From: Microglena sp. YARC
Lineage: Eukaryota; Chlorophyta; Chlorophyceae; Chlamydomonadales; Chlamydomonadaceae
Length of the DNA: 64,000 bases
Direction: 5' to 3'
NCBI GenBank assembly: GCA_022414725.1
Contig: CM039464.1
Coordinates: forward strand, 930,001-994,000
Shown: positions 1-40,720 of the stretch, in pieces
Numbering within the stretch: the stretch's first letter is position 1
Layout of the letters: every line of letters begins with the position of its first letter
Made by a program: the position numbers and the translations under genes
The notes under the pieces: generated by a model
Database searches by the model: none
Seen by the model: only the letters and a program-made list of their open reading frames with translations
What the model was told of the DNA's origin: nothing

Positions 1-610
1 GGGGGTGGGAATTAATAAATTGGTTAATTGATGAATTACACACCAATACTTACCCTCATACACCCCACCAACCCAGCTTCCTAACTTGGTGTAATTTGAT
101 TTATTATTAATATAAGACACGTTCAGGTTCGTGGACCCACAAGCGAGCGACCTGCGGGGAAGGGAATTCATGAATTGGTTAATTGATGAATTGGTTAATT
201 GGTGAATTCATGAATTGGTTAATTGATGAATTACACACCAATACCTACTCCCATACACCCCACCCTCCCAGCTTCCTAACCTGGTGTAACTTGATTTATA
301 ACTAATATAAGATAAGACACGCTTAGATTCATGCACCCACAAGCGAGCAACCTGCGGGGGTGGAAGATACAAGTCATGCTGTTGGTGTTGTTGGTGATAA
401 TGGGTGTGATTATGGTGGTGGTGGTGGTGATAATGGGTGTGATTATGGTGGTGGTGGTGGTGGTGATAATAGGTGTGATTATGGTGGTGGTGGTGGTGGT
501 GGTGACGATGGTGGTGATGATTCATGGACCCACAAGCGGGCAACCTGCGGGGGTGAAAGATACAAGTCATGTTGTTGGTGATGATTCATGGACCCACAAG
601 TGAGCAACCT
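1..610 (-). repeat. Array of exon-25 5'-edge echoes of the dynein gene
   Basis: Four copies of one 3' splice site plus the first 25-40 bases of a dynein exon lie on the minus strand, with exon-like starts at 608, 544, 351 and 151. They encode VARLWVHE or close variants, which matches what follows SPTD in beta-type dynein heavy chains (ARLWxHExxRV). The copies at 351 and 151 lie in a tandem unit of about 195 bp. Each copy leaves the dynein frame after about 15 codons or fewer (the one at 151 hits TAA), so none is the full exon; the true exon 25 should lie just left of the window. Confidence 0.7.
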
Positions 611-816
611 GCAGGGAGGAGTATTAATAAATCGATTAATTACACATACACATCAACACCTCCGCCAACTGCACTAGCAGACAAACACTACACAGCAAGC
701 AACCTGCACCACCACTACAACTACTGCCGCCATCACCTGTACCACCGCCGCCACTTACAACCACTAATAAAAACAAAACACAAGTTGTTTTAAACCACCA
801 CCGCATGGTGACTCAC
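611..816. other. CCA/ACC-rich intron sequence, no gene
   Basis: This part of dynein intron 24 is rich in CCA and ACC triplets. Open frames here encode low-complexity His/Thr runs, and I see no gene-like signal. Confidence 0.6.
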
Positions 817-946
817 ATCTGTGGGGCTCTAGTAAAAGTCCTTGATCATGCGGCACATGCCCTGTGACATGTTGGATAGCTCTCGCAGGTTGCACTGGTA
901 GTGGAACTTGACTGCGGAGGGCAAGAAGTTGTTCATGACCAGCCTG
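817..946 (-). repeat. Echo of dynein exon 24 3' end, with in-frame stop
   Basis: A 130-bp near copy of the last part of exon 24 includes its donor (GAT|GTGAGT). It is downstream of the real exon in transcription order. The codon after DFY, AAG in the real exon, is TAG here (829-831), so this copy cannot replace the exon. Confidence 0.85.
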
Positions 947-1164
947 CCTACCACCACCATCACCACTAAAACAACCACCACCTGCACTACTACAACCACT
1001 ACGACAACCACCACCACCTGTGCCACCGCCGCCACAAACACAAATACTAAAACAAACAAAACACACAACGAACAGACAAAACAAAACACGACAAACAAAA
1101 CACAACAAACAAAACACAACCAACAAAACAAGTTTTCTGTCACCACCACCACATGATAACTCAC

Positions 1165-1546
1165 ATCTGTGGGGCTCTTGTAAAAGTCCTTGATCATGCG
1201 GCACATGCCTTGTGACATGTTGGATAGCTCTCGCAGGTTGAACTGGTAGTGGAACTTCACAGCGGAGGGCAAGAAGTTGTTCATGACCAGCCTGTGCAGC
1301 TCGATGGTGGCGTCGACCAGCTTGTTGGACATCTTGGCGACATCGGGGTGGAAGTCGCTGATGTGGCCGTCGATGATTTGGAAGTAGATAGAGCGTACGA
1401 TTTCAGGGGGGGGCATCTGGACAGCTAGCGTCATGAACTGCCGCTGCATGCGCGGGGTGATGTTGAAGGAGCCAGCAGTGGGGTTCATGCAAGCGCAGAA
1501 CTGGGTGTTGGTGATCTCCTTGAGCACGATCTTGATCTTGTCATAC
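1165..1546 (-). CDS. ODA4: Dynein exon 24 (AAA3 sensor region)
   Basis: Residues 2590-2717. Contains [40 protein letters not shown] and [16 protein letters not shown]. Acceptor ATCAG|GTA; donor GAT|GTGAGT. The last exon fully inside the window. Confidence 0.94.
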
Positions 1547-3962
1547 CTGATGATGAGAGGAATGGGGTTGGGGAGGGGTGGTGAAGGTTGGGGGGGTGGG
1601 AGGGGGCTGAAGGTCGGGGGTTGGGCAATAGGGGGTAGCCGGCGGTGGGGTTCATGCAAGCACAGAACTGGGTGTTGGTGATCTTCTTGAGAACAATCTT
1701 GATCTTATCGTACCTGATGAGAGGAACGGGGTTGGGGAGGGGTGGTGAGGGTTGGGGGGGTCGGGAGAGGGGTGAAGGTTGGGGTTTGGGGGCGGTGAAG
1801 GTTGGGGTTTGGGGGAGTTGGAGGGTGGTAAAGGTTGGGGTTTGGGGGGCGGTGAAGGTTGGGGTTTCGGGGGGGGGATTGCCCCCTTGTATAACGTACC
1901 AGCCATCGAAAACCAACATACCACAAAAAAACAAACCAGAAATAAAAGTACCACCAAAAACCAATCCACCAAAAAAACCAACGTACCAGCCACCGTAATC
2001 AATCTTCTGCCTCATGAGTTCGATGGCGGACTGGGTGTCGTACTTGTCGACAAAGGGCATATTCATGTCATCCACAAAGTAGACCATACGGCGCGCACCG
2101 GGGGGGCCGTAGCGCACACCTGAGGATAGGAGATTGCTTTTTGAGAAACTGAGAATCGAACATGGATGGTTGAATAAAGATTATACTGATAAACTGACTG
2201 TCTGATAAACTGACGGATGGATGGTTGGATAAAGATTAGACTGATAGACTGACTGATAAAGACTAGACTGATAAACTCTGACTCTCACTCATTCACTCGC
2301 AGCAAATCACCAGACAACACACACCAACTCGCTCACACCAACTCACCAGACTATTTCTCCAGAGGCAACTGATACACTCTTTCACAGATAAAACCCCACT
2401 GACTCTCACTCACACCAACTCACTAGACAACACACACACACAGACCAACTCGCACACACCAACTCACTAGACAACACACACACAGACCAACTCGCACACA
2501 CCGACTCACCAGACAACACACACCAACTCGCACACACCAACTCACCAGACAACACATACCAACGCTTACACACCAAATCACCAGACAACACGTACCAACT
2601 CACACACACAGCACAACTTGCACACACAGACCAACTCACCAGACAACACACACACACCAACTCACCAGACTTCTTCTCCAGAGGTTACTCCAGAATGATC
2701 TGGGCAGAGGGGGCGTCGCTGAAGGAGTTCATGTTCATAGCGAAGAAGGACATCGTTTCTGGGTCCATGTTCCTCAGGGTGTTCATCATCACTCAACTCA
2801 AACACACTGACACACCAACTCACACACACACCAACTCACCAGACTTCTTCTCCAGAGGTTGCTCCAGAATGATCTGGGCAGAGGGGGCGTCGCTGAAGGA
2901 GTTCATGTTCATAGCGAAGAAGGACATCGTCTCTGAGTCCATGTTCCTCAGGGTGTTCATCATCACCGCTGTCTTGCTGGTACCGGTGTTTCCGACAAAC
3001 ATCATGTTATGCTTGTTGGAGATGAGGGACTCTAGGAAGTAGGTCAGGCGGGTGGTCTCGACGTTGGGCACGAAGATGGAGTTGAAGTCTCCGGGGATGT
3101 ATTGGAACTTGGGAACCTTATCCTCCCAAGGCACCATGATGACCTGAGAAAGGAAGGAGACAGGATCAAAGGAAGTAGGTGAGGCGAAAGGTCCCAGGGT
3201 TGGGCACGAAGATGGAGTTTAAGTCTCCGGGGATGTACTGGAACTTGGGAACCTTATCCTCCCAAGGCACCATTATGACTTGAGTAAGGAAAGATGGAGG
3301 ATCAAAGGAAGTAGGTGAGGCAGGTGGCCCCAACGTTGGGCACGAAGATGGACTTGAAGTCTCCGGGGATGTACTGGAACTTGGGAACCTTATCCTACCA
3401 AGGCACCATTATGACTTGAGTAAGGAAAGATGGAGGATCCAAGTAAGTAGGTGAGGCGGGTGGTCCCAGCATTGGGCAGGGAGATACATAAATAGTAAGC
3501 CTTATTACAAGGCGTGAGGTTGAGGGGGGCAGCCCGTTTGCTTGAACTAAGGCCAACCACCACCACCACCATAAATAAATCCATTCATCGTGTTTACCCG
3601 CTCACCCACGTAGTAATCGAATAAATAAATAAATCCACCCATCCAGCTTACCTGCTCCTCGTCCACGTAGTAATCAAAGACAAGGCCCTTCTCTGGGAAC
3701 TGGACATTCTTCCACTCGGAGATCCACCACTTGGAGAACTGGGTACGGTAGTCGTACACCTACATGGGAGTTTTGGTGGGGTGGGTGGGTGTTGCTGTGG
3801 TGGGGCGGGTGGGGGGGAGGGGTGTTGTTGTTGGTGGTGGTGTGTGGGGGTGGTGTGTACTGGGTACGATAGTCGTACACCTACATGGAATTGTTGTTGT
3901 CGTTGGTGGGGTGGGTGTTGATGTTGGTGGGGTGGGGGAGGGGTGGTGGTGGTGGCGTGTGT

Positions 3963-3993
<31 letters not shown>

Positions 3994-6900
3994 GGGGGGG
4001 GGGGAACTGGGTACGGTAGTCGTACACCTACATGGGATTGTTATTGGTGGTGGTGGGTGGTGGTGGGGAGGGGTGTTGTTGTTGATGTTGGTCGTGTGGG
4101 GGGGGGGGGGATGTTGATGTTGATGGGGTGGGGGAGGGGTGGGGGTGGTGGTGGTAGGGTGGGTGGAGGGGTGAACTGGGTACAGTAGTCGTACACCTAC
4201 ATAGGACTGTTGGTGGGAATGGGAGAGTTGTTCGTGGTGGTGGTGTGGGTGGGTGGGGAGGGGTGTTGGTGGTGGCGTGGGGTGACTTGGTTACGGTTGA
4301 CATACACACACATGGGACAAGAATGGTGGTTTGGTGGTTGGATGGTGGTGATGTGGTGGGTGTGTGTGGTGGTGAACCTAATATTCAATTATCTGCATAG
4401 CACGAACTCCGGGCCCTCATGGGTTACAATATGTTGGGGTTCAGTCCACCAGTGCTTGTTTGGGCAAGTCCTTTTTGCCTATTTGGCTGCCCCTGGCCAG
4501 TAAAAATGCACACATACACACCTTGCCCACCAGTGCTTGTTTGGGCAAGTCCTTTTTGCCTATTTGGCTGCCCCTGGCCAGTAAAAATGCACACATACAC
4601 ACCTTGTCCACCAGCATGCATCCACCAAAGGCCCACACGCAAGCGAATACAAAGTGGTACTCAAGCAGCTTCTTGTCGGGTGGGGGGGGGGGCACCAAAA
4701 ACGCTCCCTTTAGCCTATTTGGCTACCCCTGGACTCTACATACATACATGCGTACATACACACCTTGTCCACCAGCATGCATCCACCAAAGGCCCACACG
4801 CAAGCGAATACAAAGTGGTACTCAAGCAGCTTCTTGTCGGGTGGAGGGGCACCACGCACGCACACCCTTTAGCCTATTTGGCTACCCCTGGACTCTAACA
4901 AAATACACACATACACACCTTGTCCACCAGCATGCATCCACCGAAGGCCCACACGCAAGCAAAGACAAAGTGGTACTCGAGCAGCTTCTTGTCAGGTGGG
5001 GGGGCACCACGCACGCTCTCCTTGGGAACAATACCCTCAAGGATCTTGCACAGCGTCATAGCCTGGTTGATGAGCGGCAATGGGACCACATACTTGAAGT
5101 TTCGGCGGCAGAACTCCATGGTGGGGTCGACGTAGCGGGTGAAGAGGGCAGACAGCAGGGGGCCGTATTCTGTTGCTTCCAGTTTCTCGATCCAGGAGTC
5201 AACCACGGGGCGCCAGCCCACGTCTTCTGCGTTAACGTAGATGACGCCGCCGCGAGACACGGTGGCGGGGGAGCAATGGACCATGTGGTTGATCTCGAGC
5301 AACAGGCGCATGGTGGAGGACAGGGGGATGCGCTCGTTGGACGCGAGGGTCAACATCTTGTTGTCGTCCATTACAGTGTTCATGGATTCAATCCACTCGG
5401 CATCGATGTCGCCGTCCAGCACTATCCATTGGTGCTTGATGACCTTGTTGTTGGACATGTCGCGGAAGGTGACAGACATGAGTCCCTCCTTCCACTCACG
5501 CGTGGCGGGGTGCAGGTTTCCGTAGAGTTCGTTTCGGGTGACGGCCTTGGGGTTGATGGGGCGGTAGGTGGTCTTCTCCCCCTGGGCAATCTGAGCCTTC
5601 ATAAGGGTTCTCCAGATGGCAGTCTTACCGCAGCCAGCAGGGCCCAGGAGGAAGACGGACCAACGGACAACAAAGAGCTCGCGCAATTGGGAGATTTTGA
5701 GGCAGAAGATATCGTCGGCCTGGTAGCCCAGCTCCAGGGCTGAGGCTTTCACTTGCTTCTCAAACACTACGTCAACGGCACGGGGGACCAGCTCCAGGGT
5801 CTTGGGGAACAGATCGTTCAGCAGACCCAAAAAGATGGATGTGTCGTCGGACGTCAGCTTACCCAGGTTGAAGTCACGAAGGGCTCGGAGCATGACCTTA
5901 TCCTCGGAGAGCTCGGGGGCAGCGCGCTTCATGCCACCCGCCACATACAGGGTGGTCTTAATAGCACGCAGCTTCCAGTCATAATGGCGAGACTGTGGGT
6001 GTGAAGGTGGGTGGGCGGCTGGGTGAGAAGAAGGTGGGCAAGAGGGTGTGTGGGATTAGGAGGGCTTGGTGGTTCATGCCACCCGCCGCGTACAGGGTGG
6101 TCTTGATAGCACATAGCTTCCAGTCATAATGGGGAGACTGTGTGTGGGTGGGAAGGTGGGTAGGTGTGCTGGTGGGTGGGTGGGTGGGTGGGTTGGTGGG
6201 AGTGGGACAAGTAGGGGGTGGACAGAGAGAGTCGACAGTGGAAGAAGCAGTGGAAGAATATGTGGGAAATGTGAATAATTGAAAAAAAATAAAAACATGT
6301 AAATGAATGAAACAGTTTGAGAACCTTTGAGAGCAAGTCCTCGCACAGCTTGTACAGGATGACAAACTTCCTGGATAGAATCTTGGACATCTGGAAACCC
6401 TCAGCCATAAGCATGATCTCGCAAATGAGGGCCAGATCGGGCACCACCATGGACACGGGGCGGAAGAGAGCCTTCAAGGACTCGGGCAGCTCGGCACGAC
6501 CAGGGTATCCGGGGTTCATGGTGATGAAAGCCATGACGGTGGGCTTGAGTGAGATCTCGACGTCCTCAAATAGGAACTTCTCCTTGCGCGCACGGATGGC
6601 GTCGAGCACGGTCTTGTACTGAGTGGAGCACACAGAGAGCACGGCCACGGGAATGCGGTTGAACTCGTCGAAGCAACCCCAGGCACCGGTCTGGGCCAGT
6701 CCCTTGTAGATCTTGTACAGGGAATGAAGAAATAGGGGTAATGAGGAAAATGAGGGAATGGGGTAATGAGAGAATTGAGGTACTGAGTGGAGCACATAGA
6801 GAGCACGGCCACAGGAATGCGGTTGGAACTCGTCGAAGAAACCCCAGGCACCGGTCTGGGCCAGTCCCTTGTAGATCTGTACAGGGAATCAGGAAATTGG

Positions 6901-9900
6901 GGTAATGACGAAAATGAGGGAATGGGGTAATGAGAGAATTGAGGAACTGAGTGGAGCACACAGAGAGCACGGCCACGGGAATGCGGTTGAACTCGTCGAA
7001 GCAACCCCAGGCACCAGTCTGGGCCAGTCCCTTGTAGATTTGTACATGGAATGGGGGGATGAGGGAATGAGGGAAGTAACTAACATGCATGCATACACAC
7101 CTTCTCTGCCAGCATGCATCCACCAAAGGCCCCTTCCCCCCCCACACACACGCAGCCGGATCATACCTGGCCCTTGGCCTTGTAGTCCATTTGTGCAGAG
7201 CACTTGAACCCGCAGCACTGGGTTATGCCCACTCCTCTTACGGTTGATATCTCTTTTCAAACCTTTTGACATAGATCGTTAGTACTCACTTCCCGGTAGG
7301 AAGCATTTACCCCCCCCACACACACACACGCACACCCACATCCACACACACACATGCAGCCGGACCGTACCTGGCCCATGGCCTTGTAGTCCATCTGATC
7401 CGAGCAGTTGAACACATAGCACTGGATTCCCAAGGCGCGCGCCAGATCCTTAACACTCTCTGTCTTGCCGGTTCCAGCAGGACCGGCAGGGGCACCTCCC
7501 AGCACCAGGCGCTGGGCCTGGGTGAGTGTGATGTAGCAGCGATCGGTGAGGGGCGTGATGCACAGGCATCCGCAGTTTCCGATGTACTCGTAGTTGTACA
7601 TAATCTCGGCGTCGCAGATGTTGACCTGAGAGGAGGTAGCGGCATGTCATATGATGTTGGCCAAAGGCGAGTATGGTTGGGTGGGTGTGTATGGGTGGCT
7701 GGGCCTGGGTGAGTGTGATGTAGCAGCGATCAGTTTTTTCATTTTTTTCTGGTAGTAGCGCAACTGGGACTGCCACTGGAAGCAAGAGCCGACACACACA
7801 AACATGTTTGGATGTTTCAATTTTTCCGGGTAAATTTGTTTTCACTGCCGAAGATGAGTGTGATGTAGCAGCGATCAGTTTTTTCATTTTTTTCTGGTAG
7901 TAGCGCAACTGGGACTGCCACTGGAAGCAAGAGCCGACACACACAAACATGTTTGGATGTTTCAATTTTTCCGGGTAAATTTGTTTTCACTGCTTAAGAC
8001 GGCAAGCAGCCTAGCTATATATAGCTAAGTCCAAGTCCTACCTGGGAGGCTTTGTTCTTCTCATTCTGGTAGTAGCGCAACTGGGACTGCCACTGGAAGC
8101 ATGAGCCGTCCTCAACCCTATCCTCAATCAGACGCTGAAGTACGTCACGGGCATGGACGTCGATGGTACACAAGGTGATGAGCTTCTTACGGTCCAAGTT
8201 CTTCTGGTCTTTGTTAATCTCGACGATCAGGTCACACAACTGGGAGACCTGCCTGTCCCACTCGATCTTCATGGCATCCTCGTTACCTTTGGGTTGGGGA
8301 TGGGTAAGTGGTGGGGTAGGTGAGTGGTGAGGTGGGTGAGTGGTGAGGTGGGTGAGTTTGGTTTTGCTTTTGGTATGGGGGGAAAGATCTGTAAACTACA
8401 TTTGCATGGCGGAGAAAACAACGGGAGGACAGAAATGAAACAGAAGGGAATGCATGTGAACACGATAAAAGTCAAAAACATAACACACACAAAATACCTT
8501 CCTCCAGCTCCTCGAACACATCGTTGACCTCCTGGGTGAAGAAGGTATGAGACACGATGGTGTTCTGCACACTGAACGTATCACACACACACGCAATCAC
8601 CACAGACACATCAAAAACATAACACACACACAACATACCTTCCTCCAGCTCCTCGAACGCATCGTTGACCTCCTGGGTGAAGAAGGTACGAGACACGATG
8701 GTGTTCTGCACACTGAACGTATCACACACACACACGCAATCACCACAGACACATCAAAAACAGAACGCACATACAACATACCTTCCTCCAGCTCCTCGAA
8801 CGCATCGTTGACCTCCTGGGTGAAGAACGTATGAGACACCACGATGGTGTTCTGCACACTGAACTTGTACAGCCACTGACATCGGGACTGCATCTCGCCG
8901 TAGGCAGGGATGGCCATCTTCCCCCTTTCCACACACACGCATATAAACACACACACACCACAAACAGAACAAACATACAACATACCTTCCTCCAGCTCCT
9001 CGAACGCATCGTTGACCTCCTGGGTGAAGAACGTATGAGACACCACGATGGTGTTCTGCACACTGAACTTGTACAGCCACTGACATCGGGACTGCATCTC
9101 GCCGTAGGCAGGGATGGCCATCTTCCCCCTTTCCACACACACGCATATAAACACACACACCACAAACAGAACAAACATACAACATACCTTCCTCCAGCTC
9201 CTCGAACGCATCGTTGACCTCCTGGGTGAAGAAGGTACGAGACACGATGGTGTTCTGCACACTGAACGTATCACACACACACACGCAATCACCACAGACA
9301 CATCAAAAACAGAACGCACATACAACATACCTTCCTCCAGCTCCTCGAACGCATCGTTGACCTCCTGGGTGAAGAACGTATGAGACACCACGATGGTGTT
9401 CTGCACACTGAACTTGTACAGCCACTGACATCGGGACTGCATCTCGCCGTAGGCAGGGATGGCCATCTTCCCCCTTTCCACACACACGCATATAAACACA
9501 CACACCACAAACAGAACAAACATACAACATACCTTCCTCCAGCTCCTCGAACGCATCATTGACCTCCTGGGTGAAGAACGTATGAGACACCACGATGGTG
9601 TTCTGCACACTGAACTTGTACAGCCACTGACATCGGGACTGCATCTCGCCGTAGGCAGGGATGGCCATCTTCCCCCTTTCCACACACGCATATTAACACA
9701 CACACCACAAACAGAACAAACACACAACATACCTTCTTCCAGCTCCTCAAACGCATCGTTGACCTCCTGAGTGAAGAAGGTACGGGACACCACGATGGTG
9801 TTCTGCACACTGAACTTGTACAGCCAGTGGCACCGCGACTGCATCTCATCGTAGGCAGGGATGGCCATCTTGAATTCTATGGTGAGGGCCAGCTTCATGC

Positions 9901-10594
9901 TGTCGACCACGTTCTGCAGCCAGATCTCAACGGGGCTGTGGGCAGAAGGGGTGGGGTGGGTGAGTGGTGGGGTGGGTGTGGTAAGTGGTGGGTTGGTAGC
10001 ATGGTGGAGCGGTGGGGTGGGTAAGGGGTGGGTGGTGGTGGGGTGAGTGTGGTAAGTGGTGGGGTGGTGGAGTGGGTGAGTGGTGGGGTAGGTGGGGTGA
10101 GTGGTGGAGTGGAGTGGTAGTGGTGTGTTTGGGTGGGTGAGTGGTGGGGTGGGTGAGTGAGTGGGTGGGTGAGTGGACTTACCCATCGCAGCTGCACTTT
10201 CCTCCGAAGAACTCCACATACTTGCCCTCTCCTGAGTGCATGCCAATGGCAGCCTTGCCCCCCACCCCCCACCCTCAACCCCCTTGACACGCACACACAC
10301 CCATTGAACACACAGGCAGGTGGAACTTACCCATCGCAGCTGCACTCTCCTCCAAAGAACTCCACGAACTCTCCCTCTCCTGAGTGCATGCCAATGGCAG
10401 CCTTGGTGGGCTGACCCATCTCATCCATCTTGAACGTAAGGTTGTGCACGTTGTCAAAGTTCTTGGGCAGATGGCGCAAGATGAGCTGGGGGTTGGAGCC
10501 CTTGGACAGAATGTCCAGCAAGTCAGCCGGCGCAACAAAGTAGAAGCGAGGGAAGGCGATACGCTTGGTCTCCAAGTAATCCTGCAGGGGTGGG

Positions 10595-10641
<47 letters not shown>

Positions 10642-12659
10642 ACAAATAGTATGCCTGTTGTCTCCAAGTAGTCCTGCAGGGACGGGTAAAAGATATAAAT
10701 ACATACATAAATAAATAGCATGCCTTATTATGAGGCGTGAGGTTCAGGTAACCAGCCTGTTTGCTTGCACTGGGGCCAACCACCAAAGAGGTGGGTCAAA
10801 TAAAAATGGCGAATTAGTTTTAGAGAGTTGAGGTCTGGTGTTCAAATCCCCCCACCTCCACTTAGGAAAAAGTAGTTCAATAGTCTTATGCAGCGTCGCA
10901 AGCGTACATCTATATGTCTAGATGCCTGGACTGTAACAACATACATACCTGCAGAGCCTTCTCGCACATCTCCAGCTGGGAAAGCATATTTTCTAGCCTC
11001 TCCTGGCGGCCCTCCAGGTTGCAAGCCTCCACCACATTGAGAATGTCGCCGGCGCCGCGCATCAGGTCCTTAAGGTGGTGGGTGGGGTGGGGGTGAGGGT
11101 TGGGAGGGATTTGTGTGTGTGGGGTGGGAGGGTAAGGGGGCTTCGTGTGTGTGTATGTGTGTGTGTGTGGGGGGGGGGGGGTGGGGGGGGGTAAGGGATG
11201 ATTTTGATTTTACTTAGTGCTTTCAGTGGCAGAGGAGGATGCAAGGGAGCATTCCCTTATTCGCCTCCCTCATCAACGCCGTCCCTGGAAGTCGAGGTTG
11301 ACGACGTCAAAGCGCTTGCTATCCTCAGACAACTGCACACAGATGTCGGTGGACCCCACCCTCACCACCCCCACCTTACCCCTCCCCTACCCCTTCCCAA
11401 CCCCACCCAAAAACTCCCCCACACCTCCCTAACCCATACACCATACCCCTTCCCACCCCACCAACGCGGTACCTGGAAGTCGAGGTTGACGACGTCAAAG
11501 CGCTTGCTATCCTCAGGCAGCTGCACACGGATGTCAGCGGAGCCGATGAAAATGGACTCCAGGGCCTGCCACTTCCTCTGCACGTCCTGCCAGGTGCCCA
11601 GGACACTGTCCACAGTGCCGAGGTTCTTCTGCCACTTGGACACGGCGTCCAGGAACATGGGGTTGGTCTGCACGTATTTCTGCGCAGACATGTTCTGTAG
11701 CTGCAGGTTGTCGTTCTCCAGGGCCTCGGTGATGGCGTCGTCGATTTGGATGGCGCTGATATCAGTGTCCTGGTACACAGCGACGGGTGAAGGGGTTTAG
11801 GGGATTTTAGTAGTTTGGGGAATTAAGGTTTTAGGGTTTAGTGATTCAGGTCTTGATTCAAAGGTTTAGGGTTTAGGCGGTTGTAGGGTTTGGGGCCTAC
11901 ATGGGTTTGGGGTGTAGGTAAGTTGGGGCTAACTTCAGTGGGGGCTAACTTCAGTGGGGGCTAACTTCAGTGGGGGCGAACTTCTCCATACCATTGGTGG
12001 TTGCCCCAGTGCAAGCAAACGGGCTGGCCCCCACAACCTCACGCCTCGCAATAAGGGGCACTATTTATTTATGTATCCCCGTACCTGGTACACGCCAAAG
12101 GCCAGGATCAGGCCGGCCCAAGTGTCCTCGATCTTTTTGATCTGCTTCTCGATGTTGAGCTCCTTCTGGGCGCGGTCGACAATCTCAGAGCATGCGTCCA
12201 CGTAGTTGTGCAGCTCCAGAGCGAGCAAATCACCCAGGCAGAACTTGTCGTCCATGACAAACTGTTTGCCCGTGGTTTGCATGAGAAGCTTCCAATGGCG
12301 CTCACGCATGGCCGGGTGATGCAGGTCGTTGACCAGGGGGAGGGAGGTGAGCAGGGCCTTGAGGGTCTCCTCCAGCAGACGGTACACCTACATTACATGT
12401 GCATACAAACAGTTACGTGTTTTGCCTTTCAACTTGAAGTTGAATCATCCTACATGACATATTCTTCAATCAAATTGATTTATTCTATGAGTGGGGATAT
12501 AATGGCGATCTTTTTAGCCATTTTCAGGTAATTCTGAGCATCTCATTTGGGGCCCCAACTCACCTCGTAGTCGTTGACAGCCTTGTTGAGAGTCTTGATA
12601 TCCTTGCTCGGCTTCTTGGTCTCCTCTACCAGGATACCTCACACCAGCAGCTCCTCACT

Positions 12660-12690
<31 letters not shown>

Positions 12691-15600
12691 AGACACACAC
12701 ACAAACAAACCCACACCCACTGGCCCCAACCCACCTCGTACATCCTGACAGCCTTGTTGAGCGTCTTGATATCCTTGCTCAGCTTCTTGGTCTCCTCTAC
12801 CAGGATACCTCACACACCAGCAGCTCCTAACTACACCCCCGCCCCCCCCAGACACACAAACACACAAACAAACCCACACCCACAGCCCCCAACCCACCTC
12901 GTACATCCTGACAGCCTTGTTCAGCGTCTTGATATCCTTGCTCAGTTTCTTAGTCTCCTCTACCAGGAACTCCACATCGATCTTGTCCCAGGGGGTCTTG
13001 TACCAATCATTGAAGGTGAACATGACGGTGCCCACCATATCCCACAGGCTCTTCAGGTACTGTAGCTCCTCGGAGCAGCGCTGCAGCATAAGTAGGGGGA
13101 AGCTAGTCAGCACTTTGTTGGTCAGCACTTGGGTTTAGGTGGTTCAGGTTTAGATGGTTTAGTTTGAAGTGGTTTAGGGTTTGGGTGGTTTAGGTTCAGG
13201 TGCTGTAGGTGGCTTAGGCTTAGAGTTTAGGTGGTTTAGAAATGGAAGTGCTGACCAGCTCCTTCCTATCTGCAGCATGAGATAGTCAGACTGGAATAGC
13301 TCAAACAGCTCTTAGCTGGGCAGTACTTGGGTTAAGGTGGTTCAGGAGCTATAGGCGGTTCAGGGATAGGTATACATTTACATGGCTAAGATAAAGAAGT
13401 GCTGACCAGCTTCCCCATACCTGCAGCATGAGGTAGTCTGACTGGAAGAGCTCGAACAGCTCTTGTGCCTCCTGCAGCTGCTTGGACTCTGCCACAATGT
13501 CGATGAGGGAGGGGTAGGTGGCGGGTTTGCCATGATGGAAGTCGTTGAGGATGACGTAGGCAGGTTTGACCAGGTCGGACTTCAGCTCGCCGCCCTCGGC
13601 AGTGAAGGGGGCGGTGGCCTGGAAGTACTTGCGGAAGGACTCGACGCGCTCGTTGAAGGCATCGGACTTGCGGCGGATTTCGAAGGCCTCGGTTTGCTGC
13701 AGAGCCGCCATCTGTGCCCTCCTGTTGTGCATCTTCTTCTTGAGCGCACGCCAGGAGAACTCACCCTCCTCCAGCTGCTTCAGCACAGCCTCACCTAAGT
13801 TGGGTGGGGGGTGGGTTGGGTTGGGTTGGGCTGTGTTGTGTTGCGTTGCGTTGCGTTGTGTTGTGTTGTGTTGTGTTGTGTTGGGCTGGGTTGAATTGCG
13901 TTGGGCTGGGCTGGGCTGGGCTGGGCTGGATTGGGTTGGGTTGGGTTGGGTTGGGTTGAGTCATAGAAAAATACGAATTGTTGCAAGGTTATATATGCCA
14001 GCAATTTGGCGTCTGACCGTATGCAGAAAACAATCCTAGATATGCCCAGATCTCTACACCAGCAGGTCAGACTCACCTAAGTTGATGCCGTAGGCCTGCA
14101 GAAGGGCCACCGCCTCCTTAAGCGGCTCGAACATGACGTCGGTGCGAGTCTCACGCTTGCGGATGTCGCGCATGCAAGACATGATGTCATACAGGGCCTT
14201 GTGCTTCTCCTTCGCTTCAGTGTCCTTCTGTTCTTCGGAGACCTCCTCTTGCTCCACCATCTCAGCAGCGTCGTCGGCATCGGCACCGGTGGACTCGCCA
14301 AGCACCTTCAGCTCCAGCACACCGTTTGAGCCCTCCATGAATGAGTACAGCCCCGTGATGGAGTTGATGACCTTGTCTTGCAGGTAGTGGGTGAAAAGGT
14401 ACACCCACTTGGAAGCCCAGGTGGTAAGCGCAGTGCGCAGGGGCTTTGCGTTGATCTTCACCCAGCCGATGGTTTGGTTTCCAGGGAGGTTGGCGATCTC
14501 AGCTGACACCTGCTTGTATTTGGCAATCTGGGCCTCGAACTTGGCCAAGGGGGGGTCGTCGTAAGTGTCCTCGCCCTCGATCTGGGTGCCCTCAGCTTTC
14601 AGGAACTCTTGTAGCGTTGCGTTGAGGTCCAGCTTGTAGAGGTAATCGTACTTACTGAATTGTGCCTTAAACTCCTCGCAGTGAGTCTCGTTCTGCAGGC
14701 TGACCTCCATCACCTACACAGATAGACGGGAGCACAGGTGGATGCAGTTGAGCGGAGTGGAGTGCAGTGGAGTGGAGTGGAGTGGAGTGGAGTGCAGAGG
14801 AGTGATGTGGAGTGGAGTGGAGTGGCAGTGCAGTGGAGTGCAGATGAGTGCAGTGTAGTGTAGTGCAGTGCAGTGCAGTGCAGTTAATAATAATCAACTG
14901 TCCCATGGCACCATACACATCATAGTCCTCCTCCAACTCCTTCGTGGAGTAGAGTTCAGTGGAGTGGAGTGCAGTGGAGAGCAGTGCAGTGCAGTGGAGT
15001 GCAATGCAGTGCAGTGGAGTGAAATGCAGTGCAGCTAATAATTATCACCTGTCCCATGGCACCATACACATCATAGTCCTCCTCCAACTCCTTCGTGTAG
15101 TTGCCCTCTCCAATGTCCAAACGCTTCATGAGAGTGCCGATCTGGATGAACTTCAGCAACCAGTCGCGGATCATGTCACGCACACCTGCGACATGATGTA
15201 TGGTTCAGTTGATTTACTTGAAAGTGTGATGTGAATCGTAAAATGAATTTACTGCAGCACAAGCTCAGGGCCCCTGTCAGTACAAGGATTGTTTGGCCAT
15301 TGGGGTGGGGGTCATGGGGGTGGTCCTGGAAAAGCAGTTGGTCCAGGAAAATCTGGAAAACATACGTACACACATACACAAAACATACACACACACAAAT
15401 GCATACATACACACACATGCATGCATACACACCTGTGGAGGTGCCTCCCTCAGCCAGCTCTGGCTTCCAGATAATATCAGGTGCCACCAGCTCGAGCTGG
15501 ATCTCCATCAGAGGGGCAGCGTCAGACTTGGCAATCTCTTCAGGGTCAATTTGTTTTAGCAGGTAGCTGATGGTGCACATGATGGCCTTGGAGAAGCCTA

Positions 15601-18600
15601 AAATGACAATCTCCGAGAAGTAGTCTACATAGGCGCGCCACGAGGCAGAGGCCTTGGATACCTTGAGGATGCGATTGGAGCTGGAGAGGAGCTTTCCAAT
15701 CTCTTTGCCCGCGTCCTGGAATCAAAAAAGTATAAATAAATCAATTAAAATACCTGAACAGAGATTTAAACAAAGTAGTAGAGATGGAGAGGAGCTTTAT
15801 AATCTCTTTGCCAGCATCCTACAATCGAAAAAGAATAAAATAATTAATTAATTAATTAATAAATGAATATATAAAAGTGGCAGAGATTTTAAAAACAGTA
15901 GAGATAGAGAGGAGCTTTCCATTCTCCTTGCTGGTGTCCTGGAATCAAAAAAGTATAAATAAATAAATAAATGGTAGAGCTGAGTAGAGATTCTAAAAAA
16001 GTGATGGACCATCTACCACTATCAGCACCTGTATCTCCGAGTGACGCTGCTGAATGAGCTGGTTAAAGGCATCGTTGAGTTCCTCAAAGGTGTACGTCTT
16101 GCCATCCTTACGGTCAAACATCAGATTGTTCTCCCAGTTGGTTAGCAGCGCATCTGTAGCGCGCACGTTGTCCTTAATGGTAGACAGGATCATGTCGACC
16201 TCTTGGACCATCTCCATGCACTCGTCGATGTAGGACTTAATAGACTCGCTGCGCCAGTTCAGGTCCTCACGGCCCTTCTTCAGCAAACCCTCCACAGCCT
16301 CTAGCTTCTGCTGCACCAGGGGGCGCTCCACATCCAAGATGGTCTTCTGGATGCGGTTATAGATGGAGCAGATGAGGTCCATGGAGAAGATCTGCTGCCT
16401 GTGTGTGTGGTAGGGGGAAGCTGGTCAGCACTTGGGTTTGTGTGGTTTAGGGTATAGGGTTTAGTGTTCAGGGTATAGTGGTTAAGGTTTTGATTAAAAG
16501 GTGTAGGGTTCAGGATGTAGGTGGGTTTAGGGTTTACTTAAGTGGAGGCTACCCTTAGTGGAGGCACACTTCCTCCTACCTGTACCAAGGATTTTCTTTA
16601 TATATATATATATATATATATATTAGCGATGGCTACTTTAGACCCCATTTTGCACACAACTGCTGCTATGAAAAATAAGAACATGCCCTTCAAAGCTATA
16701 AAAGCTATAAGACGCTGTCCCTGAAGGAGGCCAAATACCATGAAGCTAGAAAAAAACTACTTTCAGATTTGGAAATAACATCTCTACCTGTATGCGTCAG
16801 TGTGCGTGAAGATTGTCTGGGCATTCTCAGGCACGTCCATCTTGAGCAGAAGGAAGTACTTAGTCTCACGCAGGAGTTTGACCAGCTGGGGGTCAAAGTT
16901 CACCTCGATGACAATGCTCTCGCCGGTTCCGTCAGCGTAGATTAGCAGAGGCTGGTTCAGCTTCTCCTCGGTAGTAGCCTCCACCTGCTCACACCACTTG
17001 GAGAAGGCGAAGCCCTGGTACTCTTCCATGATAGCGATCAGGGTATCGTACATCTTCTGTATCTCCTTGGCCTTGTCCATCTCGAGGATCAGCTTGCTCA
17101 TGGTTTTCAGCCTTTGCATCGGCTCCTCAATGCGCTCTTTTAGGCCGCGCACCCAGGCTACGGCTCCAGAGTGGGGCGCAGAGTTCTTAGCAACCACAGG
17201 GCGGTCCTTGTAAGCGTGGAAGATGTCAGCCACGTCTGTCAGGTCAGAGGAGTAGGCATCCAACAGGTCAGCGTGCTTCTTCACCAGGTCGGCAGCAATG
17301 ACCTCGCGGTCAAGCAGGCCCTCGAAGGAGTCCATGAGCTTGAAGGTCATGCTGATGGTGGTGCAGTCGTCAAACGCCTGGATGATGATGGCTGCCAGCC
17401 TGCGCTCCAGCTCCTTGATCACCACACGGAACGTGAAGAAGTCCTTGTCGAACTCCTTGGCGTCGGTGTCCATGACATCGTACGAGACGGCCTGGAACTT
17501 CTCAACTGCGACGACGAAGTCCTGGTGGATGACCTTCACTCCGTTGGTCAACACCTTACCCTTGGTGCCGCCGATCTCAACACGCTCGAGTTTGTTGAAC
17601 TGAACGCAGGTGGACATCATGTCCATCATGTCGTGGCAGCGCTCCATGAATGCATCGAGGCGGGAAAACAGGGAGCTGTTCTGGAACTTCCATGGGTTGT
17701 CAGGGGTCTCGACGTTGGAGATGCCCCTGTACTCGAAGTAGAAGTTCTTGAAGGCGCCCAGGACACGCAGGGTCAGCCTCAGCTTGTCCACAGCCTCGGT
17801 AGGTTCCATCTGGATGAGCTCACTACCAGGCACAAACTTGCAGGCCTGCAGGTTGAGTTGGTTGAGGTGGTTGAGTTGCGGGTTGAGTTGGTTGAAAAGA
17901 ATGAGAGCAACACAAACAGTAACTGGGTGTGATTGTTGGCCTATCAAACCCTGTATGTTGGTTTAAATGGTTGAGAGGAATGCGAGCAACACAAACAGCG
18001 ACGGGGTTGGTTGAAATGGTTGAGAGGAATGAGAACATCACAAACAGCGACTGGGTGTGATTGTTGACCCATCAAACCCTGCATGTTGGTTAAAATGGTT
18101 GAGAGGAATGAGTGCAACACAAAAAGCGACTGGGTGTGATTGGGTGTGTGTAGGCCCACCTGCATGATGAGGTCATTGCAGATCTCCTGCATCAGTGTGA
18201 CAAAGCGGCCGACGTTGTTGTAGTACTTGGAATTCTTCCAGATCAGCATGATGGTATGGATGGCGGGCTTGAACAGCTCCACAAGGGATGTAAACTCGTC
18301 CATCATGTTCAACTTGTCAAAGTAGGTCTTCAGAGGCTTCAGGAACTTGACATTGTCGTTAGCCTCCAGCCTGGCCAGCTCAACCTCGTGGAAAAGCCTC
18401 TGGAAGGCAGGGTAGTAGGTGCTCTTGGACAACTCAAGCACCTTCACCACCTTCTGGATCTTCTCTCCGGTCAGCTGCTCGTGCACAGAGTTCAAGTTAG
18501 CAGCGCGCTCCGACCAGAAGCTGAGCTCGGTCAAGGGCCCTGGGTATGAGCCTGGCTCTTTGAGAGCTGAGTCAGGGTCAGCCTTGAGCACGTTCTTGAT

Positions 18601-20413: not shown

Positions 20414-21200
20414 GGTTGCGCTTTGATTTGACTAAATGTGCACTCTATAAACCCCTTATGTATACCAATTGTTATTCAGGTTTGTTAAGAGCGCGGTATC
20501 TAATTAATTTGCTGTTTCTATGTTGATTAGGCGCTATGCAGTGCGAGCTATATTGGAGGGAATCGATGGGGCGGGAACAGAGAGGTACCGATTGTACTGT
20601 ATTACGGCGGTACAGGTTACATTGTGAGTCCCATTTTTCACGCGCACGTATCAGCACCAAGTGCGAGTTCGAGTGCAGTCCCCCCGATAGCACGATCCAG
20701 ATGCTCAGTTCCTTAAGCCACGAATCTAGACTATTACTTGTTTGCTTTTACGGATTCATCTCGGCCTGATCCAGTAGCCACACTAGCAAGGCGCGACCAC
20801 ATTTTGGTGGGCGCACGCATGAGACCAAAACCTTAGGTAGTGCATCCATGTTGCATCCTTCAACTCTACTGGGAACACCAGGCACTCAGTATATTGCGAC
20901 ATATGTGAGCTTTGTGATTCCTTACAACGGGGCTGAAAGACCGACCTCTTTTTGGTCGTCCCGGGGAAGTATCGCGTCGTCCCGGGAAGTGCTGTATTTT
21001 TTCGAGGTGTCATTTTCGGCTGTGTTGTGTCGCACCCTCATGAAGAATCATACGCGCGTTCCAGCACCCCTCACCTGAAGTCCCACCATGCAAGCACGAG
21101 GGCCGATCATTAGGGGACCTCGGGCACCCTGCTATTTAGCTGTGGTCGTGGAAGCTGTGGACGTGAACGTTGTCCTCTCCTAGTGTAGGGGTTCAAACCT
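20414..21200. other. Region upstream of the dynein start
   Basis: Presumed 5' UTR and promoter of the dynein gene. I see no convincing TATA box or other defined site. Small open frames here resemble nothing I recognise. A GGGGTTCAAACC motif near 21,188 resembles a tRNA B-box. Confidence 0.4.
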
Positions 21201-27195: not shown

Positions 27196-27345
27196 CTGTA
27201 GCACGAACTCAGGGCCCTCGTCGGTAAAACGATTGTTTGGGGTTCAGTTCGCCAGTGCTTTTTCCTTGTAAGCCCTTCCTAACACAGCTGGGTAAGTCCC
27301 TTGAGCCTATTTGGCCTGTAACCCCTGGACTGTAACATACATACA
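27196..27345 (+). repeat. SINE-like R7, near full length
   Basis: Runs from GCACGAACTCAGGGCCCT to CCCCTGGACTGTAACATACA, with a short CATA tail. The reverse copy at 46,405-46,558 shares the same limits and the same flanking ATGATnATTTAA sequence. Confidence 0.65.
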
Positions 27346-28230
27346 TACAAACCTCAAGATGTCAACAGAACACGAAAGCTAGTTCTGTTAGCTTCAAGGT
27401 GCACTGGCATGCATCGGGTCTAGCTGAATAGCTAGTCAGGGGAGCTGACTAGAAGGTGCTACTCGTAGATAAAAATAAAAGATATGCGCTAGAGCACAAG
27501 GAAAAATGTAACATCATCATCACTTCTGAGTCCCCCCGTGCGATACCCGCAGAAAACAGGGAGCATACAAAGCGTAGCAGCTTCTAGACAGCTCTCTTTG
27601 CCTGTCCTTGAGCCGAACCTGAAGCTAGCTAGTGCGCCTAAAGCCGATATGATGGGGATTCCAATGCAACTGAAAGCTTTGGGATTCACCCAGTCAGTGG
27701 CTGGCTAATGGAGAGGGCGGTATCAGTTAGTGAGAGCACCGGGGTCCTCGGGTCTTTTCCTATAAAATCATTATACACGAAAATCTTGAAGGGGGGATTT
27801 CCGATAGCCCCTCCGATAGAATCCCTTATCGCGGGATGTTTCAACAGTCCGTTTTGTGCCAGCGTTTGTCAGTGTGTACCGTGTGAGTCCGCGATTCAGG
27901 TGTGGCAGTATTATTTAGTCCGCAACTTTGCGACTACCAGTAAGAAAAATGAAGACTTGGGGGCATGCCAGTACGCCGTTTACCCCCCCCCCCCCCCCCC
28001 CCCCCAACGGTGACAGTAATCATTCTTCTGGGGGGGGAGGGGGGGGGGGGGGGGACACCCAGTTTGCAGCTTTTCTACTACACTGCAGTCTGAAGCTGTC
28101 TCCGATTCGTAATACTGTCGTAATTCGTCTACCCCCCCCCCCCCCCCCCTTCTCCTCTATACCCACACATGACCAAGAGCAGCTCCGTTCCTACAAAGCA
28201 GACACATCGCTGCAGGATAAAATGCGATGC
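27346..28230. other. Unassigned sequence with poly-C and poly-G runs
   Basis: Contains half a copy of the TA-flanked MITE family (about 27,380-27,470) and homopolymers near 27,984-28,005 (C), 28,029-28,054 (G) and 28,132-28,149 (C). No recognisable gene. Confidence 0.5.
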
Positions 28231-31920: not shown

Positions 31921-32002
31921 TTCAAATGTCTATATATATGTATCATATATTCAAATGTCCGTATAAATGCTTCAAATATTCAAATGTCAATATATATTCA
32001 TA

Positions 32003-36613: not shown

Positions 36614-37172
36614 ATGGAGCAGATAGTCGTCTTGGACTATGGCAGCAAGACTTTCAAGGCCGGCTTCTCATACTCCTTCCCGAGCGAGGAGGAACCTCGG
36701 GTAGCGATCCCGACCATCGTTGAGCGGACGGACCAGCCAGCGGAGCCATCGCAGCATCAGGGGTCGAACGTCCGATTCCCTGTGGTGAAGGGGAAGATTC
36801 ATAATTTCGAAGAAATTGAGGCGCTTACCTCGCATGTGCTATACGATAAGCTGGGATGGGAGGTCGGTGCCGAGGGACTGGTTATCATGTCTGAGCCCGT
36901 GCTTACCTCTCGCTCGGATCGTGAGGCCACGGCACAGATGATGTTCGAGACATTCAACGTTGAAGGGCTGTACGTACAAGACCAAGCCACTCTATCTCTC
37001 TATGCCTTGGGCAGAATAACAGGCTGTGTGCTGGACGTGGGCCATGGCAAGGTGGATGTATCAGTAGTGACTGAAGGTCAGCTGAATTCATCAACTTGTC
37101 GGCGCATGGAGTTTGCGGGCGAGGAGCTCACCTACTTGCTTCAAGATCTCTTACGCAGCAATGGAGTTCCAG
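36614..37172 (+). CDS. ARP7: ARP7 exon 1
   Basis: 186 codons plus one base, MEQIVVLDYGSKTFKAG to SNGVP. Donor CCAG|GTGAAT. An upstream ATG at 36,606 is out of frame, so 36,614 is taken as the start. Confidence 0.87.
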
Positions 37173-38338
37173 GTGAATAGCATGGACTTGTCACAGTAGT
37201 AGGCATGTTGGTAACTTTCTTGGAAAAAGTAACCCACTCCATGTTGTCAGGGAATGTTTCCCTAGCTAACGATGAAGTTCCAGGCGCACAGCATGGACTT
37301 GTCTTAGTGTGCATGTGGTATGTGCATGTGGTATGTGGTGGTGCTGGGTGGTGGGGAAGTTGGTATGTGGTGGTGGGATCAGGTGGGATGTGGTGGTGGG
37401 TGGGTGGGGAAGTTGGTATGTGGTGGTGATGTGGTGGTGGTGAGTGGGTTGGGAAGTTGGGATGTGGTGGTGGGATGTGGTGGTGGTGGGATCAGGTGGG
37501 ATGTGGTGGTGGTGGGTGGGTGGGTGGGGAAGTTGGTTTGTTGGTTGCTGAAGCACCCACGCTATGTTGCAAGGGAAAGCTGACTTAGCTGGTAGGAGTG
37601 GACTTGCATACACATGAATACAGCTGTACGCCAATTAACAAACACAGCACCCACCCACCCACCCACCCACCACATACCCACCTACCTACCACATCCGCCC
37701 TGCATCTACCACACCACCCACCTACCACATCCACCCGCCCACCCACCCACCCACCTACCTACCACATCCACCCGCCCGCACGCCACCCACCCACCCACCC
37801 TACCTACCACATCTTCCCTGCATCTACCACATCCACCTACCTACCTCACCCGACCTGCACTTCCCACATCCACCCACATACCCACCCTAATCACACCCAT
37901 CAACCCACCATTACCACACACCTACAGCTGTACCATTCAATGCTGAACATTGGTGCTCATGTCTCTGAGCAGATGCAAGCGATCAGATTTTTTGTTTGTT
38001 TCAGAAAGGGGTCTTCTTGTAGCAATCAGGGATTTGGTGTCTGTCAGGGTTGGGCTCCTGGTAGTGATTTGGGTAGGTGGCCCGAGGGGGGGGGGGGGGG
38101 GGGAGGGGGGGGGCGGGCGGGGGAGTCTCAGGTTAGCGTACATTTTAGCCAAAAGCGGGGTCCTAAGTAGCGATCGCTTCTGGTAGCGGAACAAACCCTA
38201 GGTGCTTCGCTTGTGGAAATTGGCAGAGAGTGGGTTCAAAATTGGCAGCGATGTTCGAGCTGTCCGAGGTTTGGAAGGGTGGAGATTGGGTTTACAAGGC
38301 CGAGGGTTGGAACGTGACGGACAGACAGACAGAAAGAA

Positions 38339-38377
<39 letters not shown>

Positions 38378-38843
38378 GCGTTTACCTTGGGGGCTCCTGC
38401 CCCCTAGAAGGGGGGTCTCCGCCAAAAAAAGCTCTGCATGCGGTGCAGGGATTTATTTCCCCGCTATATATAGCGATCGCTACCTTTGAATCCGTTTTGG
38501 CCCAAATTGCCGCTACACAAATGTGGAAAACAGTGTTTATTTGTTGCCCTTAAAGGCCCTAAAAAACTATAAAAACGCCGAAAACGCTATAAAACGCTGT
38601 CCCAGGAGGAGGCCTAGAACCATTAAGCTAGGCTAAAACCCACCTACAGATTTGAAAAAATCTGCATGCGGTGTACTACTCAAGTGCAGAGAGCAGAGGG
38701 TGCAACATATAAATAGCAGCTAATTCGCAGCTAATATACTTATATTTAATACGGTATACTTATGTAATACACTCACACGCCAGCCAAATGCACCTCCTTC
38801 GCCCCCACCTAAACCAAACCAATCCAATAGACACACGCACAAA

Positions 38844-38891
<48 letters not shown>

Positions 38892-39583
38892 CTTCAAGCT
38901 GGCCCATTACCTTGCGCTTATCAGCCATGCAGTTGCCGTAGAGGTAGACACTACCCCACACCCACACCCCACACCCCACCCCAAACCCACACACCCACAC
39001 ATGCACCCACACAAATACCCCCCCCCCCACACACACACCACCACACCACCACCACCCACCCAACCGCCAATCCCCATGCAGCGCTGCAAGGCGGTGCCCA
39101 TGATGCAGAGCTGCTTAAAGAGACGTGCAGCTCAGTAGCAGAAAGCGCCTCCGCCTTTTACAGAGCCAGAGCCATGTCTAGCACAATGCATGACAGCAAG
39201 GCCTTCACCCTCCCTGACAGACAGCACCTACCACATCCCATTCCCACCATGCACCTATTACATCCACACACAAGCACACACACATCCACACGAACACACA
39301 TCCACACACACAAAAATATCCCCCCCCCCCCCCCCCCCCCCCCACACACACACACCACCCCCACCACTACCACCTACCCACCCCAACCGCCAATCCCCCT
39401 TATGCAGTGCTGCAAGGCGGCGCCCATGATGCGGAGCTACTTACAAAGATGCGCAGCTCAGCAGCAGAAATCGCCTCCGCCTTCGACAGAGCCATGTCTA
39501 GCACCACGCATGAATCCAAAGTCTTCACCTTACCTGACGGACAGCAAATAACACATCCCACTCCCACCATGCACCTACTACAT

Positions 39584-39624
<41 letters not shown>

Positions 39625-40720
39625 CACACACACACCAATCCTCCCATCCAACTCCTGAAAGTAAGGTCCTCACCCTCCCTGACAGACAGCACCTACCACA
39701 TCCCACTCCCACCATGCACCTACCACATCCACACAAAAATACACACACACACCAATCCTACCATCCAACGCCTGAAAGCATGGTCTTCACCCTCCCTGAC
39801 AGGCAGCACCTACCACATCCCACTCCCACCATGCACCTATCACATCCACACAAAAATACACACACACACCAATCCTACCATCCAACGCCTGAAAGCATGG
39901 TCTTCACCCTCCCTTACAGACAGCACCTACCACATCCCACTCCCACCATGCACATACACATCCACACATCCACACACACACACCAATCCTCCCATCCAAC
40001 GCCTGAAACCAAAGCCTTCACCCTCCTTGGCAGACAGCACCTACCACATCCCACTCCCACCATGCACCTACCACATCCACACACATCCACACACACACAA
40101 ATATTCCCCCCCCCCCCCCCCCCCACACACACACACCCACCCACCCCAACCGCCTATCCCCCCATGCAGCGCTGAAAGGCGGTGCCCATGATGCAGAGCT
40201 GCTTAAAGAGATGTGCAGCTCAGCAGCAGAAAGCGCCTCCGCCTTCGACAGAGCCATGTCTAGCACCACGCATGAATCCAAAGTCTTCACCTTACCTGAC
40301 GGGCAGCAGATAACCTCCACCACTGAGGGAATGCATGTGACGGAAGCTCTCTTCAGGCCGGAGCTGATCAGCTGTCACGGTCCTGGGCTAGCTGACCTGG
40401 CAGCTGAATGTGTGGCCACACACTATGAGGGTGCATTTCGGCGGCAGGTGTTTGAGGGGGTGTTGGTATGTGGGGGGGGAAGTGCCATCCCAGGGCTAGC
40501 AACTCGCTTGATAAAAGAAGTGAAGACGCTGTTACCCCCAAGCATCAACCCCGCCCTGTGCCCTGTGCCTGAGTACTTGCAAGCAGATCACACGTGCAAG
40601 TTTGCTCCCTGGGTGGGTGGCGCTGTGTTATCTAAGGTTTTGCTGCAGCAGGGGCAGTTTGTGGGCAAGGCTGATTACGACGAGTTCGGGCCGTATGCAA
40701 TGCATAGGAAGTGTTGCTAA
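36614..40720 (+). CDS. ARP7: Actin-related protein 7 (ARP7)-type, two exons, 369 aa
   Basis: Nuclear actin-related protein; in plants ARP7 is linked to SWI/SNF-type chromatin-remodelling complexes. Exons 36,614-37,172 (phase 1 out) and 40,170-40,720 sum to 1,110 nt including TAA. It has the actin fold start VLDYGSKTFKAGF, a second phosphate-loop-like segment GCVLDVGHGKVDVSVV, and the family segments LSLYALGRITGC, VFTLPDGQQI, VCGGGSAIPGL and APWVGGAVLSKV, ending HRKCC. Length and ending match plant ARP7 (about 363 aa, HRKCF) rather than conventional actin. The 2,997-bp intron holds echoes of the exon 2 5' end, and copies of the C-terminus follow the stop. The orthology call rests on remembered family motifs. 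Confidence 0.85.
37173..39079. other. ARP7 intron, simple-repeat part
   Basis: Contains TGGTGGTGGG repeats, CCACCCAC repeats (37,640-37,900), a G-rich run (38,088-38,115), a GACA microsatellite (38,325-38,375), an R5 copy (38,456-38,655) and a CA run (38,830-38,890). No additional exon is needed for the ARP7 frame. A short segment at 37,205-37,290 repeats the exon 1 end (GAAGTTCCAGGCGCACAGC). Confidence 0.6.
39082..40090 (+). repeat. Echoes of ARP7 exon 2 5' edge
   Basis: Two long copies start after CAG acceptors at 39,082 and 39,408 and repeat about 150 bases of exon 2 (GGAHDAELL to LPDGQQ). At least four shorter copies of the VFTLPDGQ segment follow (about 39,656, 39,773, 39,890 and 40,008, period near 117 bp). 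All lie upstream of the true exon, and each runs into CCATGCACCTACCACATCC-type intron repeat. Confidence 0.88.
40170..40720 (+). CDS. ARP7: ARP7 exon 2
   Basis: Starts after CCCATGCAG and joins exon 1 in phase (G + CG = Ala). The only copy that reads through MHVTEALFRPEL to the HRKCC stop at 40,718-40,720. Confidence 0.88.

Follow-up and report, generated by a model that had tools for sequence, protein, structure and literature searches.

Partial copies of exon ends in the introns of a green algal dynein gene and their probable origin by local tandem duplication

How do the ends of exons come to lie, in partial copy, within the introns next to them? The question is raised by a stretch of 64,000 nucleotides from the green alga Microglena sp. 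YARC (GenBank assembly GCA_022414725.1, contig CM039464.1, positions 930,001 to 994,000 of the forward strand; hereafter the window, numbered from its first letter). Its first 20.4 kb hold, on the minus strand, a gene for the beta heavy chain of outer-arm dynein (an ODA4 orthologue; 152..20425) with 24 complete exons and part of intron 24. Long introns are commonly attributed to transposons and simple repeats. We describe here partial exon copies in the dynein introns, their strand, side, register and decay, together with the same pattern in a second gene, and we consider it very probable that frequent small local tandem duplication, filtered by selection on the protein, explains the copies of exon edges.

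Our exon model is a spliced dynamic-programming alignment to the orthologue of Haematococcus lacustris, in which only GT/GC-AG introns and no frameshift were permitted. It places the ATG at 20413 and the end of exon 24 at 1165, is 78.8% identical to that orthologue over 2731 aligned positions and reproduces the exon numbering (1-24) of an initial annotation made from the letters alone. The exons total 8163 nt, including 12 nt ahead of the ATG, and are stop-free, and all 23 introns between them are GT-AG, an outcome constrained by the aligner. Matches to 7kzm_B, an outer-arm beta chain that we take to be that of Chlamydomonas, come from two reading frames (E 1e-165 and 7.9e-212). By themselves, the matches to these two algae point to a probable chlamydomonadalean source. 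A piece at 116-151 that the aligner accepted at first as exon 25 was dropped and, since it runs directly into stops, exon 25 is placed beyond the window start; we take the piece to belong to a copy of the exon 25 5' end (113..151, minus strand), one of four such copies inside the window (the others at 316-351, 521-544 and 585-608, minus strand).

Partial exon copies in the dynein introns

Searching the introns with the 24 exons (BLASTN, E<=1e-3) returns 35 partial copies of exons, every one on the gene strand and none inverted, as compared with means of 0.02 matches on the same and 0.04 on the opposite strand (maximum 1) in 50 dinucleotide shuffles, which rules out random or low-complexity matches as their source. 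A looser first search gave 40 rows, five of which were set aside, two of them a match of 21 nt shared by exons 4 and 24 and three of them 'exon 25'. Eighteen copies are exon 3' ends in the next intron (exons 8, 10, 11, 13, 15, 16, 18, 20, 22 and 24) and eleven are exon 5' ends in the previous intron (exons 7, 19, 20, 21, 22 and 24). The remaining six are misfits: two pieces each of exons 17 and 18, a displaced exon 20 end and an interior piece of exon 22. All but one (34/35) sit in the intron adjoining their source exon, the lone exception lying at 7101-7132. As none carries both exon edges (0/35), none can serve as a whole exon, and since seven of the eighteen 3'-end copies form a single array behind exon 16, independent events must be fewer than copies.

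The initial annotation had spoken of over thirty such copies, with 3' ends only downstream, 5' ends only upstream and a splice site with intron flank in each. The number stands, and so does the placement of 5' ends (11/11 edge copies upstream). The rule for 3' ends holds for all 18 edge copies and is broken by the exon 20 end in intron 18, while the splice junction and flank are found in the edge families examined; the splice site is missing from a chimera of exons 17 and 18 and from the exon 22 fragment. A separate probe of the 48 exon edges, each with a 36-nt junction sequence set against 200 first-order Markov resamplings, agrees on sidedness. On the expected side 17/48 edges clearly exceed the best resampling (19/48 at p<=0.005), and on the wrong side none does at p<=0.005 and one reaches p=0.01. 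This probe adds a copy of the exon 15 5' end (10660..10717, with a short exonic part) and weaker matches to the 3' ends of exons 21 and 23.

Read from the window start, and thus against the direction of this minus-strand gene, the copies of 3' ends are those of exon 24 (817..946; 96.2% identical, GT kept, with a stop), exon 22 (2666..2792; 97.6%, GT kept, with a stop), exon 20 (4603-4710 and 4764-4861, GT kept in both), exon 18 (7167..7224; 82.8%, GT kept), exon 16 (the array of seven, 8498..9671, GT in all), exon 15 (10183..10257; 92%, GT kept), exon 13 (11285..11356; 91.7%, GT lost), exon 11 (12575-12634 and 12735-12805, GT kept), exon 10 (13270..13313; 90.9%, GT lost) and exon 8 (14898..14950; 98.1%, GT lost). 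Copies of 5' ends belong to exon 24 (1637..1713; 89.6%, AG kept), exon 22 (3170-3279 and 3306-3415; 90-92%, AG lost), exon 21 (3859-3880, 4001-4027 and 4170-4196, AG kept), exon 20 (6073..6137; 90.8%, AG kept), exon 19 (6780-6876 and 6946-7039; 96-99%, AG kept in the former only) and exon 7 (15781-15818 and 15901-15931, AG kept). The exon 22 fragment (nt 67-124 of the exon; 3428..3485, 77.6%) has no splice site. The displaced exon 20 3' end, 32 nt long and 87.5% identical, lies in intron 18, two introns upstream and 2.2 kb away. In intron 17 the chimera, which joins nt 179-236 of exon 17 to nt 79-115 of exon 18 without a splice site, is present in two copies (four rows; 7698..7936) inside a tandem duplication of 145 bp (7710-7993) with units that are 100% identical. 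The whole region, 7698-7993, resembles the outcome of a template switch and, after it, a recent tandem duplication.

Tandem duplication, decay and selection on the protein

Why should the copies keep to one side? A duplication over a 3' edge would produce the order body, edge, flank, edge, flank, in which only the first edge joins the exon body and the second is stranded downstream in the intron; over a 5' edge the mirror image would result, with the copy upstream. Because tandem duplication over a single exon edge strands the copy on that side, the side rule is expected, and it argues for tandem duplication while saying nothing extra about splicing. Register points the same way: in 16/16 edge families examined the alignment continues into 9-95 nt of flank (just 9 nt for the exon 15 3' end), with hand-entered offsets between copy and source of 103-348 bp (median 159). 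Several units abut within 28 nt; between others, 55-175 nt of spacer intervene. Intron-only duplications of this kind have periods of 81 bp (4446..4614, 98.9% identical), 128 bp (17881..18135, intron 4) and 145 bp, all on the minus strand, and the three inverted self-match pairs in the gene are all intronic. Hence strand, adjoining intron and register uphold the earlier proposal that exon-intron junctions were duplicated in tandem; a special role for the junction does not follow, given the intron-only duplications and those of a stop-codon end described below.

For counting events we took one family as one event and assigned 20 families by hand. Not entered were the exon 25 copies, the short 3' copy of exon 21, arrays of simple repeats, dispersed repeats and one weak pair (702-782/980-1065). 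Random placement would put 27-38% of the duplications inside an exon or across two edges, yet not one of the 20 families is so placed (probability 1.7e-3 or 7e-5). Nor is any of 53 self-match pairs (97 without low-complexity filtering) exonic in both copies or inclusive of a whole exon. Whole-exon duplication, which we also considered, is therefore not supported, there being neither a copy with both splice sites nor a self-match that spans an exon.

The copies decay while the exons are the working parts, since it is on the copies that nonsynonymous changes, stops and frameshifts fall. When a single copy is taken from each of the 20 families, orthologues agree with the exon at 41 of 48 nonsynonymous differences, with the copy at two and with neither at five. 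Over all 35 copies the respective numbers are 61, 5 and 6 (n=72), four of the copy's five coming from the exon 16 array. The copies hold three stops in all, and 2/35 are frameshifted. Most differences between exon and copy are synonymous (dN/dS 0.19, 95% 0.12-0.29). Exonic identities spanning 77.6-98.9% bear out the earlier impression of differing ages, as do the stops, frameshifts and lost splice dinucleotides (GT in 3/18, AG in 3/11) the impression that some copies are damaged.

The pattern recurs in a second gene, that for an ARP7-like protein of 366 aa (36614..40717, plus strand; exons 36614-37172 and 40179-40717). It has eight matching rows, all on the same strand, with copies of 5' parts in the intron and copies of the coding end after the stop. 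Two copies of the exon 2 5' end precede that exon at 39091-39226 (84.6%) and 39417-39552 (93.4%), both with AG kept, and copies of the coding 3' end follow the stop at 40876-40934 and 41106-41140. A EukProt protein model (P0121), identical to ours at 366/366 residues, skips both upstream copies. That a coding 3' end has been duplicated like an exon edge favours a general process.

Such a process may be pictured as follows. The genome would make many local tandem duplications, each some 80-350 bp long, anywhere; within a gene, the kinds that spare the protein would be those lying wholly in an intron or crossing a single exon edge. An edge-crossing event would keep the edge on the body side complete and strand a partial second copy in the intron. 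Each event would add one unit to the intron, and units may be duplicated again into arrays and then decay. The source mutation is most likely the fill-in and end-joining of staggered breaks, which would give direct and nearby copies, with selection presumably acting as the filter and the spliceosome continuing to pick the exon-proximal sites.

How much intron could arise in this way? Introns 1-23 amount to 11,098 nt, of which 6317 nt (57%) lie in self-matches with a period of at least 60, edge-crossing or not, and by a hand estimate duplication has added 4841 nt, most of the duplications concerned having carried an exon edge. The idea that duplication is a main route of intron growth thus fits the dynein gene, within a scope of two genes examined. 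With selection holding the exon side, a copy may serve as the datable fossil of a duplication, making rate, size and filter measurable. Splice-site choice is put to a natural experiment by every event, since two identical sites arise and the exon-proximal one must win, and gene predictors are at risk of being misled by decaying exon ends that are still competent for splicing.

Alternative explanations

Several observations weigh against the account of local duplication and selection just given. Copies with spacers of 55-175 bp, whose second half is unrecognisable, are among them, as are the displaced exon 20 end and the exon 17-18 chimera, which are no simple tandem duplications and suggest occasional template switching. 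Edge-crossing is found in 17/20 families, the other three being intron-only, and this exceeds (p=0.0003) the 45% predicted by random placement that spares the protein with introns as they are at present. Finally, zero-fold sites differ less than they should if the copies were free to change (observed/expected 0.52, 95% 0.36-0.75, in 16 families with flank).

The edge excess is what one would expect if duplication or copying were aimed at exon-intron junctions, for instance through nicks, R-loops or splicing-linked damage, so that junctions are duplicated more often. Such targeting could also draw on the arrays (period at least 60), which are denser in the dynein gene (12, or 5.9 per 10 kb) and in the surroundings of ARP7 (2, or 4.0 per 10 kb) than in two other stretches (2.5 and 2.2). 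With introns reduced to lengths set by hand, however, random placement predicts 66% edge crossing and the excess becomes borderline (p=0.055), and it is gone among young families of about 90% identity or more, 5/7 of which cross an edge (p=0.15 and 0.56 under the two settings). Moreover, duplications confined to introns or covering a stop-codon end exist, and although 38/53 self-match pairs touch an exon under the low-complexity filter, only 41/97 do so without it, 56/97 being exon-free. We do not read the excess as targeting because old intron-only duplications fade faster and exon-bearing copies are easier to detect, the conserved exon side probably keeping exon-derived copies recognisable for longer. 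So to our minds, aimed duplication is unlikely.

A further possibility is that the copies are functional, as alternative exon ends or as splicing decoys under selection; the initial annotation had suggested that they could feed alternative splicing. A function would account for the deficit at zero-fold sites, for which the expectation is that, with the exon held and the copy free, their divergence is half the neutral one. The neutral value is 0.156 in flanks (148/949; 87/476 after low-complexity masking) and 0.166 at four-fold sites (33/199), as against 0.045 at zero-fold sites (44/979); the ratio is 0.44 for the ten families with at least 70 nt of flank and 0.56 without exon 16. Base composition was rejected as the cause, as flank rates reweighted to the composition of zero-fold sites still predict 0.088. 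Read in the frame of exon 16, its array shows no stop for about 1100 nt, the other frames holding five and three stops. A dinucleotide model gives a chance of 0.0045 that one 345-nt unit is open in a given frame, yet the signal is weak because the real unit is open in two frames out of three. The array is also largely covered by a stop-free stretch of 607 aa on the minus strand (8597-10420), which spans exon 16 as well.

Other features speak against a function. Offsets show no preference for the reading frame (multiples of three in 7/29), and only 4/29 edge copies would lengthen their exon in frame and without a stop while having the splice dinucleotide intact (three behind exon 16 and one before exon 19). 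Splice sites are lost about as fast as the rest: GT is intact in 15/18 3'-end and AG in 8/11 5'-end copies, where by our arithmetic a divergence of 7-16% per base predicts 71-86%. Nonsynonymous changes, as shown above, accumulate on the copies. We therefore regard functional copies in general as distinctly improbable. As for the deficit itself, it may reflect either weak protein-level constraint on some copies, or allelic divergence carried in by recombination, or a sum of small biases. There is a slim chance that some copies, such as the exon 16 array, are or recently were spliced in a minority of transcripts and hence came under such weak constraint. If so, the growth of introns through duplicated junctions would steadily supply extensions of the protein for trial.

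Could the copies instead have been made by the assembly, through a tandem join of two haplotypes or of contig ends that overlap? Some copies are indeed 98-100% identical, and the mostly synonymous differences resemble those between alleles. But functional alleles would split nonsynonymous changes evenly rather than 41 to 2, no self-match pair is exonic in both copies and no family disrupts an exon, while stops and frameshifts in the copies, their mixed ages and the sevenfold exon 16 copy fit an artefact poorly, so that we judge it very unlikely. That Introner-like or other mobile elements brought exon ends into the introns is hardly credible, for although Introners are reported in green algae (PMC9860276), one copy is displaced (7101-7132) and dispersed repeats are present in some dynein introns, 34/35 copies adjoin their own source exon with none inverted, edge copies continue into the flank of their own exon and the dispersed repeats found are not exon edges. 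Local tandem duplication under selection on the protein is the reading we prefer.

Other features of the window and known systems

One of these dispersed repeats, of about 80 bp, occurs on both strands in dynein introns and elsewhere (3484-3562, 10707-10785, 11999-12072, 33412-33497 and 61966-62041), and a second family is found in intron 20 and elsewhere (4460-4520, 27283-27351, 43429-43487, 46388-46454 and 61184-61241). An Armadillo-like reading frame at 60750-61145 has a 129-bp (43-codon) tandem repeat of 93% identity, probably an in-frame coding duplication. A reverse transcriptase fragment (PF00078) lies at 25508-25777 and a Pol polyprotein beta-barrel domain (PF22936), probably of a retrotransposon, at 55989-57296. 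A long tandem array occupies 31918-33220, in the part of the window lowest in GC (31.7% at 32001-34000).

With regard to relatives of the dynein gene, no protein of the same species is among the best 120 of 2550 matches or the best 120 of 1896, and a search of viral contigs for relatives found none. A planctomycete genome bin encodes a dynein of 45% identity (contig L001, 428-1510), probably on a misplaced eukaryotic contig, and was not used.

Exon sequence repeated beside its source is familiar from tandem exon duplication and mutually exclusive exons; unlike these, none of the 35 algal copies has both exon edges. Introner elements place similar sequence across many introns, whereas each edge copy resembles the exon and flank it came from, a displaced copy being the one exception. 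Gao and Lynch reportedly described in 2009 how duplicated coding sequence becomes a new intron. There, too, tandem duplication shapes introns, but in the alga the exon ends land inside introns.

Among published cases, a Drosophila study describes how introns are gained when proto-splice sites are duplicated (PMC2891723). Staggered-break fill-in and end joining makes small tandem duplications at Cas9 breaks in human and mouse cells (PMC8355091). Like these, the algal copies are local and direct; unlike these products of induced breaks, they comprise old and young copies in two genes, and the enzyme route is our inference.

The closest parallel is the potato RdRp gene, in which a new spliced intron arose by tandem duplication over an intron-exon boundary (Ma, Lan and Niu 2016, PMC4974935). 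The initial annotation knew of no description of such duplication as a main route of intron growth; junction-crossing duplication itself is already described, once, in potato. For the density seen here we found no reported parallel among the papers listed in a search by title and start of abstract that left most subscription papers uncovered. The likeness is close: the potato block spans the boundary, taking acceptor, tract and the start of the exon with it, and that gene too has an intron-only duplication, of 83 bp. What sets the alga apart is that, instead of one event that made a new intron, it has copies at 17-19 of 48 exon edges, none of them used in the modelled mRNA, and existing introns that have become longer.

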